64,000 bases of DNA, taken from NCBI RefSeq assembly GCF_015831355.1, contig NZ_JADWYR010000001.1, forward strand, positions 1,178,001 to 1,242,000, written 5' to 3'. Made by a program: the position numbers and the translations under genes. The DNA is from Panacibacter microcysteis. Its GTDB lineage: Bacteria; Bacteroidota; Bacteroidia; Chitinophagales; Chitinophagaceae. This document shows positions 41,279 through 46,700 of the stretch, piece by piece. Each line of letters starts with the position of its first letter. The stretch's first letter is position 1. The notes under the pieces were generated by a model. The model did not search any database, was not told the origin of the DNA, and saw only the letters and a program-made list of their open reading frames with translations.

Positions 41279-42652
41279 TCATTTAACTTCCCGCAGTTCG
41301 CTCCAGCGGCTCGTATAGCGGGGGCTGCGCAGCTCCTGCCGCATTTTCCAGTTACGCTCGGTGCCACTGGCGGCAAATTTGAGCATATCGTTGCGCATAC
41401 TAAAGTTAATGTTATCCATCATGTCCATCAGCATACGCCCATTGTTTTGAGCGGCGGGTACAAAAAGGTTTCCCTGCAGAGTGCTGTCAGGCACAATACC
41501 GCTAAGCATTACGCCAGCCTTTTGAAAAAGGTTGGCCTGGTGATCATTTACTGCCTTATAATAAGCCTGCTCTGCGAGTTGCAAAGCCGGTTTGATCAGC
41601 TCACTGGTAACGCAGGTGGCATGTGGCAGTGACATGGCCCTGCTTACCGTAGAACCATGCCTGAAGCGCTCTGCAGGATTTCTTTTTTCTTTGAGAACAA
41701 CAAATACGCTGATCACGGAAGCTGCGCCGCTCTGGCGGCGCAGCTTTTCTGCAGCTCTTGAAGTATAGGTAGCAACGGCTTCTTTAATATCGCTGAGTTT
41801 TGATACCGGCGCGCCGAACATGCGTGTGGTTGCAATCATCTTTTTTTCTGTAAGTTCTTCATCCAGGCCTATAGCAGGCTGGCATTTGAGATCTTTTAAA
41901 AGCCTTACGCCAACAACGCCACCTAGATTTTTTCTTACCCATTCTTCGGGCATTTTGCTTAATTGGTATGCATCGTACACACCAAAACTTTCTAACTTTT
42001 CGGCATACTGTGTACCCACACCCCATATTTCTTTTACCGGTGTTTTTGCCAATGCCTCGTTTACACATTCAACAGTGTCTAATACGGTAACACAGTTTGT
42101 AACGGGCTTATTAGCCTTGGCCATGTGGTTGGCAATCTTGCTCAAAGTTTTTGTTGGTGCAACGCCAACAGAAACCGCCACGCCGGTCCATTGCTCTACT
42201 ACTTCTTTCAACTGGCGGGCTGCATCTGCCAGTTTATTGAATGGTATGGCATCCATGTTTATAAAGGCTTCATCCACAGAATACACTTCCACTTTATCTT
42301 CACCCATCAGCATACGCAGGGTTTCCATCACACGCCAGCTCATGTCTCCATATAAATTGTAGTTAGAAGAGAAAACGGCTATATTATTTTTTTCAATGAT
42401 CTCTTTTGATTTAAAGTAGGGATCGGCCATGCCTACACCTGCTGCTTTTGCTTCGTCGCTGCGGCTTACGATGCATCCATCATTATTGCTCAATACCACT
42501 ACAGGCCGGTTTTGCAGGTCTGGCCTGAACACCCTTTCTGCAGAACAATAAAAACTATTACAATCAACAACAGCAGTAAAAGAAAGCTGGTGATTTTCTT
42601 TTGCGCCATTATAGTCTATGTATTTCTTTGAAATATTTTCTGCTGTTTGCAT
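41279..42652 (-). CDS. umuC: Y-family DNA polymerase UmuC
   Basis: 457 residues from ATG 42652; a GTG six bases upstream is the alternative. It is the translesion polymerase of the UmuC branch. Catalytic residues are seen in VVDCNSFYCSAERVF and YSVDEAFINMD, with SNNDGCIVSRSDEAKA. The helix-hairpin-helix region is EIWGVGTQYAEKLESFGVYD, and the C-terminal DUF4113 part (MDNINFSMRNDMLKFAASGT, ending SPRYTSRWSEL) is complete. An N-terminal extension of about 27 residues precedes the usual start. It overlaps the end of the 2H-phosphoesterase gene region by a few bases, in one operon with it. Confidence 0.94.
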   Translation of the reverse strand: MQTAENISKKYIDYNGAKENHQLSFTAVVDCNSFYCSAERVFRPDLQNRPVVVLSNNDGCIVSRSDEAKAAGVGMADPYFKSKEIIEKNNIAVFSSNYNLYGDMSWRVMETLRMLMGEDKVEVYSVDEAFINMDAIPFNKLADAARQLKEVVEQWTGVAVSVGVAPTKTLSKIANHMAKANKPVTNCVTVLDTVECVNEALAKTPVKEIWGVGTQYAEKLESFGVYDAYQLSKMPEEWVRKNLGGVVGVRLLKDLKCQPAIGLDEELTEKKMIATTRMFGAPVSKLSDIKEAVATYTSRAAEKLRRQSGAASVISVFVVLKEKRNPAERFRHGSTVSRAMSLPHATCVTSELIKPALQLAEQAYYKAVNDHQANLFQKAGVMLSGIVPDSTLQGNLFVPAAQNNGRMLMDMMDNINFSMRNDMLKFAASGTERNWKMRQELRSPRYTSRWSELREVK

Positions 42653-42657
42653 AATCA

Positions 42658-43317
42658 CTACTTTGAAGGGAACAATGCTGCCTGCACCGGCTGCGTGTGC
42701 ATGTTTTTAAAACTGAAGGTGTTTACAGGCTGCCACATTTTGGTATTTTCCTTTCGTTTTAGCAGCAGCACATGCTCTGCAATAAACCTTCCATGAAAAT
42801 GTTTATGCTGGTACTCGGCCCAGCTTTTTTCATACTGCCATGGTAATAATTTTCCGGCGATGCTTATATGTGGAGCCGTTAAAAAATGAGGTTTATGTTC
42901 ATCATCAAATTTCATCAGCTTCTGAGATGCCTTTAATGATTTTACAATATCCATTATCTCTACCTTGCTTACCACCTGTATAAAAATTGTATGCGATGGA
43001 TAACTGCCATAATTCTTCAGTTCTACCTTGAACGTGTTTACTGCCGTGGCTATATTCGTTAGCTGGCGGATAATATGCACTTCCATCAGCTCGTGTTGCT
43101 TGAACCGCACCAGTGTAATACGCGGCTTTATATGCAATGCTTCAGGGCACTGGTATGTGGTTGCGTAGTATTTTTTTTCCGCTGCTATTGTTTCTGCCAA
43201 ATCTGCATGGGGCTCCAGTACAATAGCATATTCATATACGGCATACCCATTTGCCGACAGCAATCCCTGCTCTACATAATAGTTTTTACGCTGGTATTTC
43301 CTTGTAAATATTGCCAT
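42658..43317 (-). CDS. 2H phosphoesterase (2'-5' RNA ligase-like), first His altered
   Basis: 219 residues. The 2H fold is visible, but the first motif reads KPRITLVRF (Arg66 where His is expected) and the second reads APHISIAGKL (His150, Ser152). Loss of the first catalytic His suggests reduced or no phosphoesterase activity; binding of cyclic phosphates or nucleotides may persist. Its stop is followed within 6 bp by the umuC ATG, so the two are co-transcribed. A homologous gene with intact motifs lies 299 bp upstream. Confidence 0.85.
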   Translation of the reverse strand: MAIFTRKYQRKNYYVEQGLLSANGYAVYEYAIVLEPHADLAETIAAEKKYYATTYQCPEALHIKPRITLVRFKQHELMEVHIIRQLTNIATAVNTFKVELKNYGSYPSHTIFIQVVSKVEIMDIVKSLKASQKLMKFDDEHKPHFLTAPHISIAGKLLPWQYEKSWAEYQHKHFHGRFIAEHVLLLKRKENTKMWQPVNTFSFKNMHTQPVQAALFPSK

Positions 43318-43615: not shown

Positions 43616-44212
43616 TTACAACAACTTAAATACTGTTAGCTGTGTGCATTTGTCGAACTGGTTGCGCCGCTTTAGCAATACCAGCTCCTGCACTTTGAAT
43701 GATGCAAAAAATGTGCGTTGCGAAAATTCGAACATGGCCTTGTTATACACTTCAGCGCTCAGCCTTCTTGCAATGGTTACATGCGGGTGTGTAATAAACT
43801 TTGCCGGTGGGCAACCATTGCCTTTTACGTAATGATCTACCGGCAGCAGTGCCGCGGCCAGTTGCCTGAAAGAAGCATAATCCTGCACCCTTGCATATAC
43901 GGTATGTGGCGGGAAACCGCTAAAATTATTAATGGTAACGTTAAAGGCTTGCTGCATGCCCATGATCCGGTGCATATATCTTATAATGGTATCTTCCATC
44001 TCTTCTTTTGCAAAGAAATTAGCCACAGTTATATGCGGCTGACTTTTTATAGCCACCCGTTCATTATAGGTTTCAAAAAAATACTGCTTCTCCTCCATGA
44101 GCTGTGCACAGGCATCGGCAGATGGATGCACCACTAATAAATATTCGTAAAAATGCTGCAATGCATAAGACATGGCAGCAGCTGTTCCTGCAAACCCCTT
44201 TTCCATATACAT
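43616..44212 (-). CDS. 2H phosphoesterase (2'-5' RNA ligase-like), intact motifs
   Basis: 198 residues. Both HxTx motifs are present: QPHITVANF (His60, Thr62) and HPHVTIARRL (His144, Thr146). Family members hydrolyse 2',3'-cyclic phosphates or join RNA ends in vitro; their biological substrates are mostly unknown. It is the first gene of the minus-strand umuC operon, divergent from the UmuD-like gene. The shared spacer of 113 bp contains inverted ACTAAA/TTTAGT elements that could control both. Between it and the next gene is a 298-bp gap with a repeat, so co-transcription across it is likely but not certain. Confidence 0.88.
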   Translation of the reverse strand: MYMEKGFAGTAAAMSYALQHFYEYLLVVHPSADACAQLMEEKQYFFETYNERVAIKSQPHITVANFFAKEEMEDTIIRYMHRIMGMQQAFNVTINNFSGFPPHTVYARVQDYASFRQLAAALLPVDHYVKGNGCPPAKFITHPHVTIARRLSAEVYNKAMFEFSQRTFFASFKVQELVLLKRRNQFDKCTQLTVFKLL

Positions 44213-44234: not shown

Positions 44235-44307
44235 ACTAAAAAAAAATTATTACCCGTTTCCACGATAAAGATAAATATTTTAGTTTAAATTTACTAAATA
44301 ATTTAGT
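44235..44307. promoter_or_regulatory. Candidate operator: overlapping ACTAAA/TTTAGT inverted repeats
   Basis: Half-sites ACTAAA at 44235-44240 and 44293-44298 and TTTAGT at 44279-44284 and 44302-44307 lie in the divergent promoter region. They give TTTAGT-N8-ACTAAA and ACTAAA-N3-TTTAGT inverted repeats sharing the central half-site. The symmetric, AT-rich arrangement next to a UmuD-like and a UmuC operon suggests a damage-responsive operator, which is inference. Confidence 0.45.
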
Positions 44308-44325: not shown

Positions 44326-44835
44326 ATGGAACGGGACCAGATGTACAACGCCTCTTACAGTGGATCGAAAAATTACACACAACACCATGTAAAAACAGCG
44401 AATGCCAACGGTTTTGCCGCAGCAGCAGATGACTACGCAGAGCGCGGCATAGATCTTAACGAACAACTTATTCTTAACAAGCCGGCTACTTTTTTCTTCA
44501 GGATGAACGGAGATGCTATGACCGGCGCAGGCATCAACAGTGGTGATGTGCTGATCGTTGATAAAAGTATTAAAGCTACCAATGGTAAAATTGCCGTTGT
44601 GGCCATTAACGGAGATCTCATGGTGCGCCGCATTCAGCAACATTTTAACGGACTTACACTGCAGTCTGAAAATGCGAGATACGCCAATATAGAAATTACT
44701 GAATTTGCAGACCTTAATATCTGGGGCGTTGTTACCTGTGTAATACACATTTTTGAAAGCCGCCTTTTAAACCACAGCGGCACCACCAAACAAAAACAAA
44801 AAAGCAATACAGAAGACTATCGCATATTGTATTAG
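44326..44835 (+). CDS. UmuD/LexA-like S24 protein lacking catalytic residues
   Basis: 169 residues. It aligns with E. coli UmuD at a constant offset of four. The region NGFAAAADDYAERGIDLNEQ corresponds to the cleavage region, FFFRMNGDAMTGAGINSGDV to the Ser motif and VVAINGDLMVRRIQ to the Lys motif. Three key positions are changed: cleavage-site Cys24 is Asn28, catalytic Ser60 is Ala64 and catalytic Lys97 is Arg101. The protein therefore cannot self-cleave by the known Ser-Lys mechanism. The rest of the fold is well kept, so it may act as a constitutive or dominant form of UmuD, or as a DNA-binding regulator. Divergent UmuC operon next door supports a pair. Confidence 0.88.
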   Translation: MERDQMYNASYSGSKNYTQHHVKTANANGFAAAADDYAERGIDLNEQLILNKPATFFFRMNGDAMTGAGINSGDVLIVDKSIKATNGKIAVVAINGDLMVRRIQQHFNGLTLQSENARYANIEITEFADLNIWGVVTCVIHIFESRLLNHSGTTKQKQKSNTEDYRILY

Positions 44836-45011: not shown

Positions 45012-46121
45012 ATGAAAAACATATCGAAAAACCCAAACGCCAAACCTTCTCCCGCAGCGGGAGAAGGTGGCGCTTTTTACCACCATGGGCGTGGCGCACA
45101 GATCAATACCAAAAACAGGTTCCTGGTAAATGAAGTAACAAAGGAACACATTGAAGCAATTGACGACTGGGAAGAAACAACACTGCCCACGCAATACATC
45201 GAAGAAGAAGTAAAGACAATCGTAAATAAGGTCGACAGCCCTGATGTGGGCATGAGCTACAGCATGAACCCTTATGCAGGATGCGAGCATGGCTGTATCT
45301 ATTGCTATGCACGCAACGTGCACGAGTACTGGGGCTATAGCGCAGGAATAGATTTTGAACAAAAAGTGATTGTAAAAAAGAACGCGCCGCAACTGCTACG
45401 TAAGTTTCTAATGCACCCGAAATGGGATGCTACGCCAATAATGCTTAGCGGTAATACAGATTGCTACCAGCCTGCAGAACAGAAGTACCGCCTTACGCGC
45501 AGCCTGCTTGAAACGTGTAATGAGTTTAACCAGCCTGTTGGCATACTTACCAAAAACTCGTGGATACTAAAAGACAAAGATGTGCTGCAGGAAATGGGCA
45601 AAAAACAAATCGTCTCTGCAATGGTTTCTATTACTTCGTTTAATGAAGACCTGCGCAGGGTAATGGAGCCACGAACCACCACTGCCAAACAAAAACTGAA
45701 AGTGATCAACGAGCTTAGCAGTGCCGGTGTGCGCATGGGCATTATGATGGGGCCGATGATACCCGGCCTCAACGAGCATGAAATGCAGCGCATCATGAAA
45801 GCTGCAAGGGATAATGGTGCAACGTTTACTGCTTATACCTTTATACGCTTAAATGGTGCAATTAAGTTCCTGTTCCATGACTGGTTGTATAAAAACTTTC
45901 CTGACCGCGCAGATAAAGTATGGCACCTGATAGAAAACAGCCACGATGGTAAAGTAAATGATACAAGATGGGGTGTACGCATGCGTGGCGAAGGGCCTAT
46001 TGCACAGCTTGTAGCACAACAGTACCGTAAATACGGAAAGCTTTATGGCATGAATGCAGAAGACTGGAGCCTGGACAGAAGTTTGTTTAAGCGCCCGGGA
46101 GAACAGGGCAGGTTGTTTTGA
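45012..46121 (+). CDS. PA0069-family radical SAM protein
   Basis: 369 residues. The radical SAM cluster motif is CEHGCIYCYAR (CxxxCxxC), with NPYAGC before it as in the SplB/PA0069 family, and MLSGNTDCYQPAEQKYRLTR and ITSFNEDLRRVMEPRT are conserved. Relatives resemble spore photoproduct lyase but lack proof of DNA repair activity. Residues 10-21 (NAKPSPAAGEGG and flanks) are encoded partly by a 25-bp palindrome and look like an inserted element, because the family normally begins at HGRGAQINTKNRF. It lies downstream of the UmuD-like gene and before the third 2H phosphoesterase, all on the plus strand. Confidence 0.9.
   Translation: MKNISKNPNAKPSPAAGEGGAFYHHGRGAQINTKNRFLVNEVTKEHIEAIDDWEETTLPTQYIEEEVKTIVNKVDSPDVGMSYSMNPYAGCEHGCIYCYARNVHEYWGYSAGIDFEQKVIVKKNAPQLLRKFLMHPKWDATPIMLSGNTDCYQPAEQKYRLTRSLLETCNEFNQPVGILTKNSWILKDKDVLQEMGKKQIVSAMVSITSFNEDLRRVMEPRTTTAKQKLKVINELSSAGVRMGIMMGPMIPGLNEHEMQRIMKAARDNGATFTAYTFIRLNGAIKFLFHDWLYKNFPDRADKVWHLIENSHDGKVNDTRWGVRMRGEGPIAQLVAQQYRKYGKLYGMNAEDWSLDRSLFKRPGEQGRLF
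45044..45068. repeat. 25-bp perfect palindrome inside the radical SAM gene
   Basis: ACCTTCTCCCGC, a central A and the reverse complement GCGGGAGAAGGT form a perfect inverted repeat. It is in frame and encodes part of the KPSPAAGEGG segment, giving no obvious structural benefit to the protein. Confidence 0.85.
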
Positions 46122-46145: not shown

Positions 46146-46700
46146 ATGAAAAAAGAGAATCTCTATTTTATTGCGCTTATACCTGGAAGAAAACTGCGGG
46201 AAAAGATTTCTGCTGTTAAGCACGATTTTGCTGCGCGTTTTAAAAGCAAGACCGCACTTCGGGTATACCCGCACATAACGATAAAAGCGCCTTTTAAATG
46301 CAAAGGAAGTGCACATACAGAATTGGTGAACTGGTTTAACGGCTTGCGTATAAATCAAAAAGCTTTTACCATTACATTAAAAGATTATGGCGCATTTGCC
46401 CATAAAAAAAGCCCGGTCATTTTTATAAACCCTTTAGCAAATGATGGGGTAAAATACCTGCAAAAGGAACTTACCGCAAGTTTTAGCAGTTTATTTCCCG
46501 GAGATGTGCATGCTGTTGATATCAATTTTCATCCACACATTACAGTTGCATACCGTGATCTTGATGCTTCAATGTTTGAGCTGGCGTGGAGTGAATACAA
46601 ACAAAAAAAGTTCAATGAAACATTTGATGTGAGTGCTTTTTACCTGCTGCAGCATGATACAAAACAATGGAACATCATTGCTACCCAAAACCTTTTATAG
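46146..46700 (+). CDS. 2H phosphoesterase (2'-5' RNA ligase-like), third copy
   Basis: 184 residues. Both catalytic motifs are intact: YPHITIKAPF (His43, Thr45) and HPHITVAYRD (His131, Thr133). The start MKKENLYFIALIPGRKLREK fits the LigT-like subgroup, slightly different from the two copies on the minus strand. It follows the radical SAM gene by 24 bp, so the two are co-transcribed. The substrate is unknown. Confidence 0.88.
   Translation: MKKENLYFIALIPGRKLREKISAVKHDFAARFKSKTALRVYPHITIKAPFKCKGSAHTELVNWFNGLRINQKAFTITLKDYGAFAHKKSPVIFINPLANDGVKYLQKELTASFSSLFPGDVHAVDINFHPHITVAYRDLDASMFELAWSEYKQKKFNETFDVSAFYLLQHDTKQWNIIATQNLL

Follow-up and report, generated by a model that had tools for sequence, protein, structure and literature searches.

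Results

The umuD locus and its gene neighborhood

The window, i.e. the whole 64 kb stretch of Panacibacter microcysteis DNA analysed here, carries an open reading frame with an ATG start at positions 44326..44835 (plus strand) that encodes an apparently uncleavable UmuD homologue of 169 aa, assigned by its matches to Peptidase_S24 and PRK10276 and by its membership in the clade described below. It is followed on the same strand by a gene for a PA0069-family radical SAM protein (45012..46121; 465 bits, cut-off 360). On the opposite strand, an operon starts with the 2H phosphoesterase gene ligB (43616..44212) and continues with ligA (42658..43317), both assigned by family match and conservation of the cassette. 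A third 2H phosphoesterase gene, ligC (46146..46700, plus strand, family match), lies behind the radical SAM gene; beyond this genome it is labelled as such at only one locus (L063), most stretches being too short to tell. The umuC gene (41279..42658, minus strand) is located behind ligB and ligA, so that the umuC operon is divergent from umuD, as the first-pass annotation had described. An intergenic region of 113 bp is common to both divergent operons. Read by eye, ligA has PRITL at the apparent first 2H motif (His to Arg) and an intact-looking second motif, PHISI, and both 2H histidines seem present in ligB and ligC.

The cassette is conserved among loci with uncleavable UmuD. Across 52 such loci flanked by 2.4 kb or more on either side, umuC is found in 49, a 2H phosphoesterase in 47, a PA0069-type radical SAM gene in 44 and all three in 41. 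The corresponding numbers for 19 other UmuD loci are 16, 1, 1 and 0, the sole 2H phosphoesterase and radical SAM cases being one locus (L123) that is a divergent clade member by tree. At the three of the 52 loci that lack a nearby umuC (L115, L116, L120), the gene is encoded elsewhere in the same genome. Most often, umuD-umuC diverges from lig-lig-rSAM, whereas umuC and the radical SAM gene have swapped sides in the subclade to which the window belongs (e.g. L039, L041, L045). Among 88 loci of the family sample, umuD and umuC share a strand in 73 and are on opposite strands in 2, a ratio that overstates the same-strand order, as umuC lies outside the stretch retrieved in the other 13, partly owing to short flanks and in some cases with the arrangement of the window.

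A C-terminal tail of 20-30 residues ending in Tyr (RILY, RFY, VRY, IHY) is found in many members in which the radical SAM gene and not umuC follows umuD (44755-44835 in the window, and relatives). The C-terminus also ends in Tyr at a locus where umuC follows umuD (L020), and other tail types occur among the members.

A UmuD homologue with replaced cleavage residues

Matches to Pfam, NCBIfam and solved structures agree with the earlier description of the protein as UmuD-like. It matches Peptidase_S24 with an E-value of 2.4e-24 and reaches 129.9 bits against PRK10276 (UmuD, Pol V autoproteolytic subunit; cut-off 110). Its top solved-structure match is UmuD' (1umu, E 5.2e-20), and its predicted core superimposes on UmuD' 1ay9 with a VIA Z of 17.1 over 100 residues (rmsd 3.9). 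The score against the HumD family NF051876 is 65.5 bits and below the cut-off of 120. Peptidase_S24 is the sole Pfam match at E 0.01, and a DNA-binding domain was not found by this search.

In an alignment with E. coli UmuD, whose reference sequence was checked against PDB chains, the offset is a constant four residues, which bears out the residue assignments made at first pass. The cleavage-site residue Cys24 is replaced by Asn28 (AAC, 44407..44409, plus strand), the nucleophile Ser60 by Ala64 (GCT, 44515..44517, plus strand) and the general base Lys97 by Arg101 (CGC, 44626..44628, plus strand). All three codons were re-read and are unambiguous. The features that define PRK10276 are thus split in the window protein: the S24 fold, the family score, the association with UmuC and a LexA-type SOS box upstream are present, whereas the Cys/Ala-Gly cleavage site reads Asn28-Gly and the Ser-Lys dyad reads Ala64/Arg101. 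By descent and gene company the protein is a UmuD, yet judged by its residues it is not an autoproteolytic one. Because the scissile residue and both residues of the dyad are replaced, it should be incapable of RecA-stimulated self-cleavage, as had been proposed.

Spread, age and selection of the uncleavable clade

Relatives of the window UmuD were found by profile search in 121 of 195 Chitinophagaceae genomes, some of them incomplete. The uncleavable type occurs in 93 of the 195, assigned by hand from the listings and excluding two divergent members (G104, G108). UmuD was read in 88 of the 93 (all but G023, G076, G112, G131 and G133). All 88 have Arg at residue 97 (E. coli numbering). At residue 60, Ala (82) prevails over Ser (5) and Thr (1), and the cleavage residue is mostly Thr (77), otherwise Asn (8) or Ser (3). 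A motif rule yields 99 distinct clade sequences, in which sample genomes and individually named loci are mixed and some are from the same species. Here, the cleavage position holds Thr in 82, Asn in 13 and Ser in 4, and Arg97 is found in all 98 rows with a letter at this site, one further row being incomplete. Outside the rule are L063 (partial), L123 and L189, divergent members by tree or position with Ala60 and Arg97. Ala-Ser-Lys is found in 45 of 64 other UmuD rows, a set that includes E. coli, L063, L123, L187 and L189.

In a UmuD tree of 138 rows, calculated without sites 24, 60 and 97, the uncleavable clade forms one side of a branch of length 0.6 with an SH-aLRT support of 99, and Arg97 is found in 83/83 of its rows; about half of the inner branches in this tree (66/135) are unresolved. 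In a sample of 395 genomes of the phylum, scores of at least 220 bits occur in 11 genomes, all Chitinophagaceae, the next best score being 145 bits. Likewise, in a sample of 198 genomes of the order, 25 scores reach 204 bits or more, all of them from Chitinophagaceae, with 133 bits as the best score outside the family. Judged by these scores, the clade is confined to Chitinophagaceae within the sampled genomes. The comparison of homologues in this family, which the first-pass annotation had suggested, indicates that the loss goes back to the ancestor of a clade that is widespread in Chitinophagaceae, and a single loss of the dyad Lys at or near the clade base would be the simplest account.

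Three UmuD homologues outside Chitinophagaceae are also devoid of Ser and Lys, with the residue triplets Thr-Ala-Arg (L190, 2362-2757), Thr-Asn-Arg (L192, 1106-1549) and Ser-Gln-Arg (L195, 1698-2207). The arm of L190 is short if its Met is the start. These lineages probably represent separate losses, unless they are misplaced, L192 and L195 being on long branches in the tree. A phage origin was also considered: 94 viral-contig stretches match one of two peptide patterns, but none of these stretches encodes a relative at E 1e-3.

The joint loss of three catalytic features could be taken as a sign of a degenerating gene or of an error in the sequence. Residue 97 is replaced in all 88 family-sample sequences read and residue 60 in all but five, which argues against chance or error. 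With Arg97 in 88/88 and one main substitution pattern, an error at these codons, named beforehand as an observation that would overturn the reading, is ruled out. Selection on the uncleavable UmuD is purifying: dN/dS, estimated from 22 disjoint pairs, is 0.155 in the core and 0.214 in the arm. Ten pairs have a pS below 0.5 and give values of 0 to 0.08, whereas several more distant pairs reach 0.2-0.33. Given the family-wide conservation and dN/dS of about 0.16-0.21, decay or error is hardly credible as an explanation.

The partner UmuC

UmuC is assigned by its ORF and family matches as a Y-family polymerase with a DUF4113 tail. Its catalytic residues D32, D129 and E130 are present, numbered from the GTG proposed by the ORF finder. 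As the alignment with most relatives begins only at residue 22-28, the true start may be located downstream of this GTG. Across 81 clade partner UmuCs, the catalytic Asp, Asp and Glu are found in 80, 81 and 81, the odd one being a gap. A wider count of 83 partner UmuCs also takes in those of L192 and L195, whose UmuDs are not clade members. A clamp-type motif is present in 73/81 clade UmuCs and in 34/47 other aligned UmuCs. On these residues, the partner UmuC looks active.

The partner belongs to a UmuC subfamily of its own, defined by scores of at least 370 bits (other UmuCs reach at most 334). Among the 195 genomes searched, a UmuC of this subfamily is found in 93/93 genomes with uncleavable UmuD, and uncleavable UmuD in 93/95 genomes with this subfamily, the two exceptions being fragmented assemblies (650 and 730 contigs); the counts come from related genomes and are not independent events, which applies to a Fisher test as well. 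The pairing persists where the two genes have moved apart (G028, G060, G064). In a FastTree reconstruction of 128 UmuCs, partners of Arg97 UmuDs within this group and the remaining UmuCs separate with two changes.

Other S24 and Y-family genes in the genome

The P. microcysteis genome (5.2 Mb, 11 contigs, completeness 100) encodes four Y-family (IMS) genes and, at E 0.001, three S24 domains: the window UmuD, a second UmuD on contig C5 and an HTH-S24 protein. In the second UmuD, Asn and Arg replace Ser and Lys, and the first Met directly precedes Gly-Phe, which corresponds to the UmuD' end. The proposed search for a second, intact UmuD or LexA in this genome consequently revealed no cleavable UmuD; the HTH-S24 protein has the letters for Ser and Lys. 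In a profile search of the 93 genomes with the uncleavable type, a Ser/Lys UmuD was not found in 90 and was present in three (G045, G087, G135).

The second umuD is the first of four genes in a row, followed by umuC, a 167-aa ORF and a Met-Cys ORF (contig C5, L203 5517-8484), and appears to be born as UmuD'. An exact SOS box is found just upstream of this row (L005 2345-2357). The Met-Cys ORF presumably resembles SOS-response-associated peptidases. More generally, Met occupies the cleavage position in eight UmuDs, which apparently start as UmuD', and Arg97 is found in 8/8.

The N-terminal arm

Residues 1-27 of the window UmuD (44326..44406, plus strand) form a conserved N-terminal arm with the motif Y-x-G-[ST]-K-x-[FY]-x-Q-x-x-[VI]-x-T-A-[ND]-A and without the canonical UmuD anchor. 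The absence of the arm from the gene product, characteristic of the HumD type, therefore does not apply, as 27 conserved residues precede the former cleavage site. In Ser/Lys UmuDs, positions -9 to -6 from the cleavage site are mostly hydrophobic-Pro-hydrophobic-hydrophobic (F15-P16-L17-F18 in E. coli). Pro at -8 is found in 40/48 of these sequences (E. coli counted) and in 0/99 of the uncleavable clade, and a hydrophobic residue at -7 in 42/48 and 0/99, respectively. The clade instead has Gln at -9 in 98/99 and a polar residue at -7 in 99/99, followed mostly by T-A-[ND]-A-[TNS]-G-F. Mean pairwise identity is 53% in the arm and 62% in the core of the uncleavable clade, compared to 21% and 51% in Ser/Lys UmuDs. 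In alignment terms, the arm has been retained with a new sequence, and the hydrophobic anchor, which in E. coli holds the arm down, has been swapped for another conserved motif. AlphaFold confidence does not discriminate here since it is low for canonical UmuD as well (pLDDT block means of the arm 47-65, compared to 41-52 in uncleavable UmuD).

Over all rows and by our own anchor rule, Lys97 coincides with the anchor Pro in 46 cases and occurs without it in 3, while Arg is found without the anchor in 111 and with it in 2. A tree-based test of Arg97 against anchor loss points in the same direction, with two supported independent pairs (six on all branches), too few for significance. A coupling of the catalytic Lys and the anchor Pro is suggestive only.

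The nearly invariant A-[TNS]-G-F around the old scissile site is what would be expected of a protease site. A host enzyme, or cleavage in trans, might remove the arm at or near Asn/Thr28-Gly29 and generate UmuD'; in Lactococcus, HdiR needs Clp after its self-cleavage (PMC8565304). However, the substrate site is altered as well as the dyad, the arm motif reaches back to residue 11 and hence beyond the needs of a cleavage site, and for action in trans no Ser/Lys UmuD was found in 90/93 genomes. Processing by another protease is improbable on this evidence.

The SOS box and its likely repressor

An exact SOS box, CTAAATAATTTAG (CTAA-N5-TTAG), was found by motif scan between the divergent operons (44294..44306, plus strand). 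It is accompanied by a possible second box with one mismatch, ATAAATATTTTAG (44271..44283, plus strand; L204 3272-3284), the number of such sites being within chance. The exact box is the only one in the 64 kb, where 1.3 matches are expected by chance, so that its weight comes from position and conservation. An exact CTAA-N5-TTAG is located at most 200 bp upstream of umuD in 95/99 clade sequences versus 0.65 expected, an expectation obtained by Markov resampling rather than exact shuffles, for related sequences that are not independent events. With this box upstream, expression of umuD should be damage-inducible.

A candidate repressor is the HTH-S24 protein of the same genome (251 aa, L003), which has GDSM and VYKR where the Ser/Lys dyad is expected (read by eye) and two exact SOS boxes directly before the start of its gene. 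Proteins of this type were proposed as the non-canonical LexA of Bacteroidetes, and the same motif was predicted upstream of umuDC, recA and splB in the phylum (NAR 2021, PMC8565304). According to the same survey, LexA homologues are missing from the complete genomes of Bacteroidetes that it searched. It also identified Bacteroidetes UmuD homologues, in which a DNA-binding domain was not detected; the part of its text available to us does not mention a loss of UmuD catalytic residues.

LexA-type repressors above the TIGR00498 cut-off (144-158 bits, cut-off 111) occur in 3 of the 195 family genomes (L199 1179-1790 in G051, L200 1128-1754 in G138, L201 1275-1886 in G163). Their LexA_DNA_bind matches range from 23.5 to 36.3 bits, one being just below the cut-off of 23.7.

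The divergent layout with its common intergenic region of 113 bp had raised the idea that the window UmuD is a transcriptional regulator of the umuC operon, like UmuDAb of Acinetobacter. This idea was abandoned as very improbable: a DNA-binding domain was found neither in the window protein nor, according to the survey cited above (PMC8565304), in Bacteroidetes UmuD homologues, and the genome encodes an HTH-S24 protein elsewhere, whose gene has two SOS boxes of its own. Moreover, the divergent order belongs to the subclade of the window, and the two genes share a strand in most family-sample loci.

Discussion

The analysis shows directly that the cleavage residues have been lost, how old and how conserved this loss is, that the protein is paired with a single UmuC subfamily, that an SOS box lies upstream of its gene and that the arm anchor is gone. 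The active state of the protein, its dimerization and binding to UmuC, insertion of the arm into UmuC and induction by damage are what we infer from them. We consider it probable that uncleavable UmuD resembles UmuD' from the outset and serves as an always-mature subunit in a Pol V under SOS control, with transcription replacing cleavage as the control. In favour of this reading are the conserved clade under purifying selection, the pairing with a UmuC subfamily that looks active, the failure to find a Ser/Lys UmuD in most of the genomes, the lost anchor, Arg97 in all eight UmuDs that apparently start as UmuD', and the SOS box. Upon DNA damage, the HTH-S24 repressor would cleave itself, its loss would free the CTAA-N5-TTAG box, and uncleavable UmuD and its own UmuC would be made together. 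A UmuD dimer would then bind the conserved UmuC tail directly. As the F-P-L-F anchor of E. coli is no longer there, the arm would be free and, as modelled for UmuD', probably reach into UmuC. Control would shift from two layers, transcription and RecA-driven cleavage, to transcription and whatever RecA does to UmuC.

Two observations on E. coli proteins bear on the arm. The UmuD variant T14A L17A F18A is described as mimicking UmuD', its arms binding the globular domain weakly (PMC5342242), and in the published model of Pol V an arm of UmuD' extends into UmuC close to the active site (PMC11791011, PMC12926913). By analogy, a free and conserved arm would suit this role inside UmuC. The term 'always-on accessory subunit' used at first pass is therefore retained in part. 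An accessory role agrees with the pairing with a UmuC that has its catalytic residues and with the lost anchor; 'always-on' is too broad because the SOS box upstream should make expression damage-inducible.

The main rival to the always-mature reading is a brake. In this view UmuD is locked in its inhibitory form, as before cleavage, and confines UmuC to a checkpoint or non-mutagenic role, i.e. damage tolerance or a slowing of replication as opposed to error-prone bypass. The E. coli S60A single mutant behaves in this manner, staying UmuD-like and lowering mutagenesis (PMC3901139, PMC5342242). Dyad loss alone would therefore predict the opposite of an always-mature subunit, and the argument for the latter rests on the arm change and the genome content. 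The arm is full-length and conserved nearly as well as the core, which would suit a docked arm; its retention could reflect an inhibitory role and as such counts against the always-mature reading. On the other side, the residues matching the E. coli anchor are gone in 99/99 sequences, and 90/93 genomes have no detected Ser/Lys UmuD that might release UmuC, yet the catalytic residues of UmuC are kept. A polymerase under a permanent block by its sole UmuD would not be expected to keep them, and we regard the brake as unlikely.

A more far-reaching proposal is that cleavage control was replaced by another mechanism. As a new interaction element, the rewritten and strongly conserved arm would thread into UmuC by the active site and gate the polymerase as an uncut switch, perhaps together with the 2H phosphoesterases and the radical SAM protein inherited along with it, and the cassette would represent a distinct damage-response mutasome. 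We put this forward tentatively, as a doubtful but conceivable reading.

RecA-driven self-cleavage of UmuD is the textbook second safety catch on the mutagenic Pol V and thus on error-prone copying of DNA, and these Chitinophagaceae seem to have dispensed with it. Retaining UmuD, UmuC and the SOS switch without cleavage, they offer a natural experiment: can the catch be spared, what has taken its place, and does the arm have a function of its own? An unprocessed UmuD-UmuC pair might also be easier for structure solution than the E. coli complex, and proteins of this clade are probably mislabelled in databases, e.g. as 'autoproteolytic subunit'. In titles and abstract openings of the open-licence literature, no description of a family of uncleavable UmuDs or of this cassette was found.

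Among known systems, E. coli UmuD/UmuD' (1ay9, 1umu, 8gmt) shares with the window protein the fold, 33-35% core identity, a umuC partner and an SOS-type box upstream. It differs in that the window UmuD has the cleavage residue, the nucleophile Ser and the general-base Lys all replaced, in that F-P-L-F has become Q-x-[polar]-[VI] in the uncleavable clade, and in the clade's own UmuC subfamily. HumD of phage P1, which encodes UmuD' directly, resembles the proposed state of uncleavable UmuD in being mature without cleavage. HumD is an already activated, shorter UmuD (PMC7092418), whereas the arm of the window protein is present and conserved. The E. coli triple mutant T14A L17A F18A and the uncleavable clade both have a full-length arm with changed anchor residues. 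Weak arm binding to the globular domain is described for the mutant (PMC5342242), a laboratory construct; in the natural clade, whose arm may likewise be free, the dyad is missing too and the arm sequence is both new and conserved. UmuDAb of Acinetobacter is likewise a UmuD family member with a changed function, but it has a DNA-binding domain and self-cleaves (PMC8565304), and in the window UmuD neither such a domain nor the cleavage residues were found. Finally, the non-canonical LexA of Bacteroidetes has the S24 fold and the same type of SOS box in common with the window UmuD. As an HTH-S24 protein with the letters for Ser and Lys (L003), it is the proposed repressor, and the umuD of the window would be one of the genes that it regulates.
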